NCBI RefSeq assembly: GCF_031458235.1
Contig: NZ_JAVDYB010000001.1
Location: forward strand, 248,001 to 312,000
Origin: Catenuloplanes atrovinosus
Lineage (GTDB): Bacteria; Actinomycetota; Actinomycetes; Mycobacteriales; Micromonosporaceae
Direction: 5' to 3'
DNA length: 64,000 nucleotides
The notes beneath the pieces were generated by a model. That model saw nothing but the letters and a program-made list of their open reading frames with translations. It did not search any database and had not been told where the DNA came from. Numbering within the stretch: position 1 is the stretch's first letter; every line of letters starts with the position of its first letter. Positions 3,844 to 58,551 of the stretch are shown here, in pieces. The position numbers were made by a program, and so were the translations under genes.

Positions 3844-3898
3844 CCGCAATCGCGAGGGCCGGCGTGCCTTCTCAGCGACATCCTGCCCGGCCCTCGGC

Positions 3899-4750
3899 TC
3901 TGCTGACGCCGCGCCGCTTACCGGCTGCTGCGGCGTCGCCGGCTGTTCGCTGACGCCGCGCCGCTTACCGCCCGTGGCTGACGTCGCGCCGCTTACCGGT
4001 CGTGGCTGGCTGCTGCGGCGCTTACCGGTCAAGGCTGGCTGTTGCGGCGTCGCTGGCTCGTTGCTGGTGCTGTGGTCAGGCGTGCCAGCCGTTGCTGGCC
4101 TCGCCAGCCATTTTTGCTGCCGCGCCGCTTACCGGCGCCCCGGCCGTGTCGGCCGCTGCGATGTGGACACCCGTTCTGATGCGGGGCCGAATGCGGTACC
4201 CCCGGCCGTTGCCGCATCGCCAGCGGTTCGCTGACGCCGCATCGCCTGCCGGCTGCACCGGTCATCGCGGCGCCGCCAGTTTTGCTGATGCGGCGCCGCT
4301 TACCGGCCGTCCTCGGTCACCGCCGCGTCGCAGCAGTTCGCTGATGCGGCGCCGTTCATCGGTCGCGCCGGGCTGTCGCCGCGCCGCCGGAGTTCGGGTG
4401 ATGCCGCGCTGCTTACCGGCCGTCCCGGCTTTCGTCGCGTCCAGCGGTTCGCGGTGCCGCGCCGCTTACTGGGCCGCGCCGGGGGCGTTGCCGGGCCGCG
4501 AGCGGTTTGCCGGTGCCGCGTCGCTTACCGGCCGTGCTGGCTTAGGCGCGTCGGCAGCCGTTTACTGGTGCCGTGCCGCCTGCCGGTCGCGCCGGGTTGT
4601 TGCCGGGCCGTCAGCGGTTTGCCGGTGCCGCGTCGCTCACCGGCCGTCCCGGCTGTAGGCGCGCGGCAGCCGTTCACTGGTGCCGCGCCGCCTACCGACC
4701 GCGCCCGGCTTTCGCCGCGCCGCCAGCCGTTCGCCCACTTACCGGTCCGC
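3899..4750 (+). repeat. Degenerate ~56-bp tandem repeat array
   Basis: The motif GCCGCGCCGCTTACCGG, followed by (C/T)CGT..GG, recurs about 15 times, at roughly 3905, 3955, 3982, 4015, 4119, 4236, 4290, 4346, 4403, 4455, 4514, 4570, 4625, 4682 and 4738. From 4284 onward the spacing is steady at 52-59 bp. The period is not a multiple of three, so it is not a repeated protein domain. Confidence 0.75.
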
Positions 4751-7133: not shown

Positions 7134-7146
7134 CAACCCTTTTCCC

Positions 7147-7220
7147 TATACCCGCTTCCGGCCCGGCCGGGGTCCGCATGCTCCCGCGGGCACCGGTCGG
7201 CCGCGGGCGGCCTCCCTGCC
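7147..7220 (+). repeat. Dispersed 3'-UTR element, copy A
   Basis: Starts TATACCCGCTTCCGGCCCGG and contains the core GCATGCTCCCGCGGGCACCG followed by GTCGGCCGCGGGCGG and CCTCCCTGCC. It matches copies at 12564, 57937 and, on the minus strand, 20981. It lies 13 bp after the rny stop, in the sense direction. The core can form a GTCCGC/GCGGGC hairpin with an 8-nt loop. Confidence 0.8.
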
Positions 7221-7402
7221 GGTCCCGCACCCGGTCACCCTCGCGAATCCCGCTGCCGCCCAGCTACCCACCGCGGCTCCCGCCGCGCGGCCGACAGCCC
7301 CGCGTGTTCCGGCGCCCGGACCACAACGCCGTCAGCCTGCCGGGCCCGCGGCTGGCGACCGGACGCGTAGGCCGCCGCCCTCGCCGATTGCCCGGGAAAC
7401 AG

Positions 7403-12550: not shown

Positions 12551-12563
12551 CCCACGATCCCGA

Positions 12564-12636
12564 TATACCCGCTTCCGGCCACCCGGGGTCCGCATGCTCC
12601 CGCGGGCACCGGTCGGCCGTGGCCGGCCTCCCTGCC
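12564..12636 (+). repeat. Dispersed 3'-UTR element, copy B
   Basis: Starts TATACCCGCTTCCGGCC 13 bp after the miaB stop. It contains GCATGCTCCCGCGGGCACCG, then a CGGCC/GGCCG hairpin, and ends CCTCCCTGCC. Best-preserved plus-strand copy. Confidence 0.85.
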
Positions 12637-12726
12637 ACTCCCGTGGCCGCAAGCCCATGCCCGCTCCGCGGCTCGTGGTGAGGCTGATCGGCATCGCCCC
12701 TCCGCGTGACGGTCACCGCCATCCCG

Positions 12727-12744
12727 CGATATAGCGATATATCG
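12727..12744. promoter_or_regulatory. AT-rich palindrome CGATATA-N4-TATATCG
   Basis: Perfect inverted repeat CGATATA-GCGA-TATATCG, an AT-rich island in very GC-rich DNA. It looks like an operator or protein-binding site, but no gene starts close by. Function unknown. Confidence 0.4.
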
Positions 12745-12780
12745 GGCGGCGCGAGCGCGCCCACCGCCGGCTCGGGCGAG

Positions 12781-12963
12781 TTCGCCGGCCTGCGCCGGAC
12801 GTCGCCGGCCTGCGCCGGACGTCGCCGGCCTGCGCCGGACGTCGTCGGCCTGCGCCGGACGTCGTCGGCCTGCGCCGGACGTCGCCGGCCTGCGCCGGAC
12901 GTCGCCGGACGTCGCCGGCCTGCGCCGGACTGCGCCGGACGAGTTCGCTGGCCTGCGCCGGAC
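12781..12963 (+). repeat. 20-bp tandem repeat array
   Basis: The unit GTCGCCGGCCTGCGCCGGAC is repeated as seven full copies from 12781 to 12930 with C/T variation at one site. A 10-bp half unit interrupts at 12901-12910, another follows at 12931-12940, and a final diverged copy ends at 12963. Each unit contains a CCGGCnnGCGCCGG partial palindrome. Confidence 0.9.
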
Positions 12964-13249
12964 CCGGATGCGGCGCTCGCCGGGCAGCGAGACGGTGAGC
13001 GGGGTGAGGCCGATGGCCGGGTTACCGAAACGCCTGCGGTTTTCCCCTGAGCCGTGGGTCAGATAAGCAAGAGCGAAGTCCATTTCGCTAGTGGATCGTC
13101 TCCTCGCTCACCTGATCGACCACTCAGCGCCCAGGAATGCGCATGACGCCCGGTGCCGAACAGATGTCGCGGCACGAGCCGCCCAGTGCCGGTTCTGCGG
13201 TTCGCGGACCGACGTCTCAGTCATTGCGACCCAAGCTTTCGGCGGCCGG

Positions 13250-13475
13250 TGGCCCCGGTGCCCGGTGGTGCCGGTGCCCGGCGGTCCCGGTGCTGGTTGG
13301 TCCCGGGGCTGGGTGGTCCTGGTGCCCGGTGCTGGGTGGCCCTGGTGCTGGGTGGTTCCGGTGCCCGGTGCTGGGTGGCCCTGGTGCTGGGTGGTCCCGG
13401 TGCCCGGTGCCCGGTGGCCCAAGGGCTCGGTGGTTCCGGTGCCCGGCGGCCCCGGTGCCCGGTGGGCGGGGGATC
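13250..13475 (+). repeat. GC-rich minisatellite
   Basis: Runs of GGTGCCCGGTG and GGTGCTGGGTGG(C/T) alternate with a basic unit of about 12-15 bp. A 39-bp higher-order unit beginning GGTGCCCGGTGCTGGGTGGC is repeated twice near 13319-13396. The plus strand is strongly G over C in GGTG context. Confidence 0.75.
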
Positions 13476-13670
13476 TCTCCGGTGTGGGTTCGCTGACCTG
13501 CCGCCTGTGGCTCTCATCGTCGACCGGCCCCACTGTGACCCGCGCCGATGCCCAATATTTCGCGATAGCGGGAAGGCATGGCATACGCGGCCGCCGATGG
13601 GATGTGGTGGGACCCGGCCGTCGCGTCGGTCGGCCCGTCCCCGAACGTGAAGCGGCGCGAGGAGCGGGAA

Positions 13671-20566: not shown

Positions 20567-20980
20567 TGACCCGCCGGAGCGTGGCCGCCTGACGATCGGC
20601 GCGAGCCGCCGGCCGGCTGGCTGTCACCTGCCGGCCCGGAGAAGCCGCCGGGTGGCCGACGGCCGGCCGGAGTGTGGTGGCCGCCCGCCGGTTCGCAGGC
20701 GCAGCAGCATGACCGGCGAGGTGCGAAGACGCCGGAGATCATCGCCAGCGTGGCGAGAGTCCTCCCGAAGGGTGGTGGCCGGCCGCTGGAAACACCGCGC
20801 GACCGACTCGGTCGGACGGTCCCTCGGCAGACAGTGGTGGCCGGCCGCCGAGCCGGAGACGCCGCCGGACGAGTCGGCGAGTGCGAAGCGGCAACCGCCG
20901 CACCTCTGAGCGGAACGCGGCGCGCCGGCCGGGGACGACGGGGACCGGGCCGGGGTTTGTGGTGACCAGCCTCGGATCGG
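20567..20980. other. Non-coding GC-rich spacer between convergent genes
   Basis: No gene is supported. Short imperfect repeats of GTGGTGGCCGGCCGC recur near 20673, 20771 and 20836, each followed by related sequence. Nothing else recognisable. Confidence 0.5.
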
Positions 20981-21053
20981 ACAGGGAGGCCGGCCACGGC
21001 CGACCGGTGCCCGCGGGAGCATGCGGGCCGGACCACGCCGGAAGCGGGAAGAT
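20981..21053 (-). repeat. Dispersed 3'-UTR element, copy D (minus strand)
   Basis: On the minus strand the copy reads TTCCCGCTTCCGG, then GGCCCGCATGCTCCCGCGGG, CACCGGTCGGCCGTGGCCGG and CCTCCCTGT. It starts 56 bp downstream of the malic enzyme stop and is in sense with that minus-strand gene. GCCCGC/GCGGGC forms a perfect 6-bp stem here. Confidence 0.85.
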
Positions 21054-21109
21054 CAGAATTGGCGGAACCGGGCGCGGTCGCCAGGAACTCGGCGACCGCG
21101 CCCGGCGCG

Positions 21110-51274: not shown

Positions 51275-51342
51275 CGCGTCGATCTAGGGCATTTTCCTGC
51301 GTTTCGATCTCCATTTACGTGAATACGGCCTAGATCGACGCG
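51275..51342. repeat. Inverted repeat with AT-rich loop
   Basis: CGCGTCGATCTAGG / CCTAGATCGACGCG are perfect 14-bp arms around a 40-base AT-rich centre (GCATTTTCCTGCGTTTCGAT...). The central composition differs sharply from its surroundings. It could be a bidirectional terminator or a small palindromic repeat element. Confidence 0.65.
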
Positions 51343-51450
51343 GCGGCGCGGTGTGCGCGGCGCGGTGTGCGCGGCGCGGTGTGCGCGGTGTGCGCGGTGT
51401 GCGCGGTGTGCGCGGTGCGGGCGGCGCGGTGCGGGCGCCGCGGGCGGCGC
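51343..51450 (+). repeat. GTGTGCGCG/GCGCGGTG minisatellite
   Basis: GCGGCGCGGTGTGCGC is repeated about three times, then the 9-bp unit GTGTGCGCG about four times, then GCGGGCGGCGCGGT. Alternating purine-pyrimidine content (GTGTGCGCG) is Z-DNA-prone. Confidence 0.75.
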
Positions 51451-51466
51451 GGCGGCGCGGGGGTGA

Positions 51467-57936: not shown

Positions 57937-58000
57937 TATTCCCGCTTCCGGCCCGGTCCGGCCCGCATGCTCCCGCGGGCAAACCTCCGGCTTCCCTCCG
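57937..58000 (+). repeat. Dispersed 3'-UTR element, copy C
   Basis: TATTCCCGCTTCCGGCCCGG, then GGCCCGCATGCTCCCGCGGG, CAAACCTCCGG and TTCCCTCCGAC. The right half is diverged from copies A and B. It begins 22 bp after the DUF3099 gene stop, in sense orientation. Confidence 0.8.
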
Positions 58001-58551
58001 ACTCCGCTGGCGCTCCGCTCCGGTCCGCCGGTCGGAGCCGGTGTCCGTGTGGTCACCCGAGACCCCGCCACCCGGCGCCGCCGGTCACCTCCCGGCCGCC
58101 GTCCCGTCCCGTCCCGTCCGCGCCGCTCGCCGCTTCCCGAACCGCCCCGCGGAACCGCCCCGCGGAACCGCCCCGCGGAACCGCCCCGCGGAACCGCCCC
58201 GCGGCTGAGCGGAGAACATGGTGACCGGCACTGAAGACGGTCCAGCGACGATTCCCGGCGGTCCCCTCGGCGTCCTGCCTGCCCTGGCCCACGACCGCGC
58301 CGCCGGCCGTGGTGCTTGATAGCTTCGGCGGCGACCTCGTCGCCTGCCACCGATGCGGGCCGCAGCGGGCACGCCGCGCGGGAGCAGGGCCGCGGTCGGT
58401 CGGTGGCGTCGCCGGCCGGCCGGAAGGGTGGGCGTCGATCACGGCCACCACACGGGTGCCGACCGCATCCCCCACGTCAGCCGCGCCGCCCGCCGTCGCG
58501 ACGTGAGGGCCGGAGGGCGGGTGCGACGCGCGTGACCGAGGCCCCGATCCG
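58001..58551. other. Non-coding spacer
   Basis: No gene is supported between the DUF3099 gene and psuK. It contains a 13-bp tandem repeat and otherwise GC-rich sequence with no ribosome sites or conserved-looking frames. Confidence 0.55.
58139..58203 (+). repeat. 13-bp tandem repeat, five perfect copies
   Basis: GAACCGCCCCGCG is repeated five times without a mismatch, and CGGCTGAGCGG follows. Each unit contains the palindrome CCGCGG at the junction. Confidence 0.95.

Follow-up and report, generated by a model that had tools for sequence, protein, structure and literature searches.

What is a short sequence, repeated almost unchanged, doing behind genes that have nothing to do with one another? 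The question is raised by a stretch of 64,000 nucleotides of the Catenuloplanes atrovinosus chromosome (hereafter, the window; C1:248001-312000 of a single-contig 8.9 Mb genome), in which an earlier note, made from the letters alone, had described four copies of such an element lying 13, 13, 22, and 56 nt after the stops of rny, miaB, a DUF3099 gene, and malic enzyme. The four copies are there as described, with exact GCATGCTCCCGCGGGCA matches at 7176+, 12592+, 21008-, and 57965+; the distances are correct, and Pfam agrees with the gene names (RNase Y, MiaB-type radical SAM, DUF3099, and malic enzyme). With up to 3 mismatches allowed, GCATGCTCCCGCGGGCA has 5 matches in the window, a number reached by 0 of 100 dinucleotide shuffles. 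All four copies (4/4) lie in gaps between convergent genes, and their parts are as follows.

7134..7150, + strand: AT-rich patch of copy 1, from the rny stop to the element (from the sequence and the AT enrichment upstream of copies)
7151..7161, + strand: block 1 of copy 1, CCCGCTTCCGG
7174..7192, + strand: core of copy 1, CCGCATGCTCCCGCGGGCA, with the invariant GCTCCCGCGGGC at 7180-7191
7193..7227, + strand: 3' module of copy 1, class B
12551..12567, + strand: AT-enriched patch of copy 2, after the miaB stop (from the sequence)
12568..12578, + strand: block 1 of copy 2
12590..12608, + strand: core of copy 2
12609..12643, + strand: 3' module of copy 2, class B
20973..21007, - strand: 3' module of copy 3, class B
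21008..21026, - strand: core of copy 3
21038..21048, - strand: block 1 of copy 3, behind malic enzyme
21066..21106 (plus or minus a few bases), - strand: 17-bp hairpin GCCGGGCGCGGTCGCC..GGCGACCGCGCCCGGT, after the malic enzyme stop and ahead of copy 3
57941..57951, + strand: block 1 of copy 4, behind the DUF3099 gene
57963..57981, + strand: core of copy 4
57982..58046, + strand: 3' module of copy 4, class C, a long hairpin

Read from 5' to 3', the element is made of an AT-rich patch, a first block (TTCCCGCTTCCGG), a variable spacer of about 10 nt, the core GCTCCCGCGGGC, and an exchangeable 3' module. The patch occupies the stop codon and the bases after it, has no common sequence, and stands out from surrounding DNA of about 75% GC, and the homology between copies starts sharply at GATNTTCCCGCTTCCGG. 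The spacer is free in sequence and varies in length by one or two nucleotides, and GCTCCCGCGGGC is conserved at 98% or more at each position. Several 3' modules follow the core, namely class A (CCGGTCGTCGCTGGCGCTCCTCCCTG), class B (CCGGTCGGCCG..CGGCCTCCCTG), and class C (AACCTC.., a long hairpin of about 65 nt).

A genome-wide search bore out the proposal that these copies belong to a repeat family, which numbers about 276 dispersed copies. This count comes from the 19-mer core at up to 2 mismatches (276 copies, 2 in the control); both blocks match exactly in 89 copies (0 in the reversed control). A profile HMM run on 1.6 Mb of the same genome, 0.8 Mb of two congeners, and C. japonicus loci gave 219 matches, 91 of them in the 1.6 Mb, and none in reversed sequence, and in a de novo 14-mer search the element was the dominant intergenic repeat of the 1.6 Mb sample. 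One tandem array of four copies with a period of about 78 bp was found at G000:C1 165031-165380 (-), where the class C hairpin follows only the last copy, and a similar composite stretch lies at 6.25 Mb. Long intergenic gaps in the window (3890-4660, 12742-12971, 13231-13480, and 51332-51461) consist of short-unit GC-rich repeats in tandem or near tandem, and many large convergent gaps elsewhere in the genome resemble them.

Genes were called by codon usage, and gene context was read from the 1.6 Mb sample (18% of the genome) together with 1.2 Mb of sequence of three relatives. The 91 copies of the 1.6 Mb fall in convergent gaps (70) or in tandem gaps, in sense (14) or antisense (7) to the genes; divergent gaps and gene interiors have 0 each. 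About a quarter of the intergenic DNA lies in divergent gaps, and the 175 of these that measure at least 120 bp hold 0 copies. The earlier note had the element always in sense with the gene upstream, which is overstated because tandem-antisense copies occur: sense and antisense stand at 14 to 7 in this genome and at 11 to 9 in two congeners, so that across the three genomes 16 of 138 copies are antisense and 25 sense in tandem gaps. Any copy in a convergent gap is in sense with one of the two genes; orientation is therefore no proof there, and proximity is the fairer test. By this measure the family is tied to gene 3' ends, since 66 of the 70 convergent-gap copies lie nearer the stop of the gene with which they share sense (P = 2e-15), as do 26/27 in the two congeners and 26/30 in the sister genus g31.

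The coupling is close, with 29 of the 70 copies starting within 25 nt of the same-sense stop, against 12.5% expected under uniform placement (P = 1e-9). The classes differ in this respect: the median start is 13 nt after the stop for class A/B and 68.5 nt for class C (P = 1e-4), and in tandem gaps class C shows no preferred orientation (8 sense, 10 antisense). Convergent gene ends are occupied more often the longer the gap (19/46 at 500 to 1000 bp), and in gaps of 300 to 1000 bp the occupied gene ends are 9/74 for tandem versus 31/88 for convergent genes. Where one gap holds both orientations, the copies face inward and never outward. A terminator role after tRNA genes was considered and rejected, with just two copies within 300 nt of a tRNA.

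When we carried out the presence/absence check in sister strains that had been suggested for this element, copies proved to be retained behind the same genes, both between species and between two genera. Orthologous ends are shared with the congener G047 in 10/19 cases against 5/270 (odds ratio, 59), with G067 in 12/21 against 7/279 (odds ratio, 52), and with the sister genus in 4/10 against 6/131 (P = 0.002; odds ratio, about 14). Turnover is nevertheless high, with 9/19 and 9/21 of the element positions of this genome empty in G047 and G067, respectively. The rny end carries the element in 5/5 Catenuloplanes genomes, with different spacers and modules and, in G084, an altered core; the rny 3' end of the genus-mate G006 is the same as that of C. 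japonicus, the species to which all exact matches elsewhere in the GTDB species collection belong (our own genome was possibly left out of that collection). Only two sister genera of Micromonosporaceae show a strong over-representation of the core pattern, with up to 266 matches in a genome, compared with 0 to 4 in genomes of 42 other genera sampled. Elements of the sister genus g31 have the same TGCTCCCGCGG core with different flanks, and one g31 genome (G077) has only 13 core-pattern matches.

Between orthologous copies, block 1 and core are 88 to 90% identical and the spacer 55%, with 78% at the fourfold-degenerate sites of the genes. At orthologous ends picked by block 1 alone, the core 12-mer was perfect in 20/24, had one mismatch in 1, and was absent from 3, and the probability of at most one mismatch at fourfold-site divergence is 0.22. 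The core is thus all or none at these ends, which points to constraint or whole-copy replacement rather than neutral decay.

Two hairpins, GCCCGC/GCGGGC and CGGCC/GGCCG, had been named as possible in the element, but as conserved structures they did not survive comparison: in three alternative pairings of the conserved part, the arms showed no both-side change in any pair among 89 sequences. The 3' hairpin of class C is the only element hairpin that does covary, with 40 both-side changes in its outer stem versus 20.5 in shuffles (0/500 as high), a count of the kind that kinship among copies inflates. Elements cut at 95 nt have only a small folding advantage over dinucleotide shuffles (mean z, -0.86), and the sense strand has none over the antisense. 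Pair-compatible changes occur in the sister genus at the positions that flank the core loop (GTT/GGC, GCT/AGC, and GTC/GGC), which is weakly suggestive of a small GC-UCCC-GC hairpin. The C-rich UCCC segments of the core and 3' module are predicted to be mostly unpaired. Judging from these alignments, sequence rather than structure is the conserved feature of the element.

The earlier note had also taken the element for a transcript 3'-end element, be it terminator, stabilizer, or processing site. The attachment to gene ends stands; the plain intrinsic terminator finds no support. The T-rich run lies upstream of the element and the DNA after the 3' hairpins is C-rich, and with the run on the wrong side a plain intrinsic terminator is unlikely. 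Moreover, behind two genes (C1:316802- and 216328+) the copies follow a canonical terminator-like hairpin that is conserved among congeners with or without the element. The element is therefore not the only terminator there, nor is it simply the terminator that those genes would otherwise miss. A comparable case is the hairpin between malic enzyme and copy 3, which has counterparts at the same place in two congeners, one of them without the element. Insertion behind terminator hairpins as a general rule was rejected, a strong hairpin preceding 12/32 distant copies versus 65/160 other convergent ends. A terminator scan of this GC-rich DNA, run to see whether elements and canonical terminators stand in for one another, found almost as many sites in shuffled as in real sequence.

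Known families did not account for the element. In Rfam, the window has no match at the gathering score, and eight element-bearing or orthologous loci gave only chance-level miRNA matches (E of 0.3 or worse), so a known RNA family was set aside. A REP sequence driven by a RAYT transposase was rejected on the absence of PF01797 (Y1) from the genome, the same search being positive in 5 control genomes, and a viral or plasmid origin on the lack of a match in the viral contigs and plasmids searched. As for MITEs, which are marked by terminal inverted repeats and a target-site duplication, the homology between copies has a sharp 5' edge and variable 3' ends, and no clean empty site could be aligned in the congeners. 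In the open-access literature we found no description of such an element, and the RepRanger survey covers few other actinomycetes and no Micromonosporaceae (PMC12306157).

Its nearest likenesses are partial. Like the REP, BIME, and REPIN sequences of E. coli and Pseudomonas, the element is short, dispersed, present in hundreds of copies, lineage-specific, and found chiefly at gene 3' ends and in convergent gaps (PMC1525189, PMC3116915). Unlike them, it is not a single palindrome, having instead two conserved blocks without covariation, and it sits close to the same-sense stop in a genome that has no Y1/RAYT gene. With the intrinsic and U-poor (I-shaped) terminators of GC-rich actinobacteria it shares the position after stops and the GC-rich stem-loops possible in its 3' module (PMC8269248), but it has a long invariant primary sequence, carries its T-rich run upstream, and coexists with canonical terminators. 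Its C-rich, mostly unpaired (by prediction) UCCC segments recall the UCCCC motif in the 3'-UTR of icaR in Staphylococcus aureus, which base-pairs with the Shine-Dalgarno region of the 5'-UTR (PMC3868564); icaR, however, is a single gene, and the element stands behind hundreds of unrelated ones.

Placed behind hundreds of genes, the element probably serves as a functional gene-end signal of a type that has yet to be described. A transcript 3'-end element read by a factor fits best with the constraint without covariation, the close tie to the same-sense stop, and the 3' hairpin that can be exchanged, and we tentatively favor a lineage-specific, bipartite family that acts at the transcript level and is recognized by sequence, for which we infer the following mechanism. 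After the stop, the mRNA would present an AU-rich linker and then the blocks UUCCCGCUUCCGG and GCUCCCGCGGGC at nearly fixed spacing, followed by a hairpin or C-rich module as a swappable structural part. A protein or another RNA would recognize the two blocks, and recognition would fix the mRNA 3' end by factor-assisted termination, processing, or end protection, keeping converging transcripts from running into each other. Some copying route would spread the copies and homogenize them within the genome. The anatomy, the placement, the constraint on two blocks, and the compensatory change in the class C hairpin are direct observations on the side of this reading. Against it count the sense RNA that folds no better than the antisense, the 25 sense to 16 antisense copies in tandem gaps, an occupancy of tandem ends below that of convergent ones, which a general 3'-end signal does not predict, the high turnover, and the copies behind conserved canonical terminators.

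Somewhat less probable is a selfish REP-like or MITE-like repeat, copied by an enzyme and surviving where it does least harm, past stops and chiefly between convergent genes, with the conserved blocks reflecting the needs of the copying machinery. Hundreds of copies in lineage-specific subfamilies, the differences in presence and absence between congeners, the array with its period of about 78 bp, the mosaic 3' ends, and the sharp 5' boundary all suit it, as do the greater distance of class C from stops (P = 1e-4), its neutral orientation in tandem gaps, and the convergent-gap preference of REPs elsewhere (PMC1525189). It has to reckon, however, with a genome lacking the Y1/RAYT transposase, with no match in the viral contigs and plasmids searched, with a core under constraint at orthologous sites where the spacer has decayed, and with placement within about 15 nt of stops, tighter than uniform placement in gaps predicts. 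The distribution along the chromosome also speaks against it. Two regions, at G000:C1 2.22-3.17 Mb and 4.01-5.15 Mb, are nearly free of elements (three looser matches only) and lie on either side of the inferred replication terminus (dnaA at 7.667 Mb; chromosome assumed circular). This suggests that elements follow the ends of old core genes and not DNA acquired more lately, a pattern that fits long-standing vertical inheritance better than active spread. Class A/B resemble a 3'-UTR element most closely and class C a mobile repeat; the family may combine the two.

Less probable again, though still a serious rival, is that the element works as double-stranded DNA, with a chromosomal protein (a nucleoid protein, gyrase, or a sequence-specific roadblock) binding both blocks and insulating converging genes or blocking polymerase between them. 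Conservation of sequence and not structure, the fixed spacing of the blocks, convergent ends occupied several times more often than tandem ends of similar gaps, the inward-facing pairs, and the tolerance of antisense copies in tandem gaps would be in keeping with such a site, but a DNA site would give no obvious reason for the AT-rich linker or for the tight coupling to the same-sense stop, and the core is not a simple dyad. Least credible is an ordinary intrinsic terminator (GC hairpin plus U-tract) spread as a repeat: its location at gene ends and the possible GC-rich hairpins would fit, and in Streptomyces clavuligerus transcripts commonly end in U-poor stem-loops (PMC8269248), but the T-rich run comes before and not after the hairpins, the conserved hairpins lack covariation, and copies lie behind intact canonical terminators.

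Dispersed repeats in bacteria are mostly taken for selfish palindromes. In this family a short sequence is strongly constrained at orthologous ends, even across genera, while the rest turns over, and a host function at 3' ends thereby becomes directly testable. If a factor does read the element, a GC-rich bacterium, in which the ending of transcripts is poorly explained, would have a 3'-end code based on sequence. The boldest version, a dedicated signal in which a factor of the two sister genera reads the 12-nt core, as RNA or as a polar DNA roadblock, and so sets where hundreds of converging transcripts end, in addition to the hairpin-and-U code or in its place, strikes us as unlikely.

Related repeats were seen in the relatives. 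In the sister genus, G057 (L228-L247) has a gene-end repeat of its own, GAGCTACCGCGACGTCCGCGGTGGTCCGGACCGTTGCTCCCGCGGCCTCACC, which shares the core; there are also a second, minor subfamily and another repeat, which contains GATCGTGGTATGAA. In G047, the orthologues of C1:324887+/326934- (L188-L207) enclose a convergent gap of 85 bp with one inverted repeat, AAACCCGATCTTCCCG..CGGGAAGATCGGGTTT, apparently made of two inward-facing element 5' ends.
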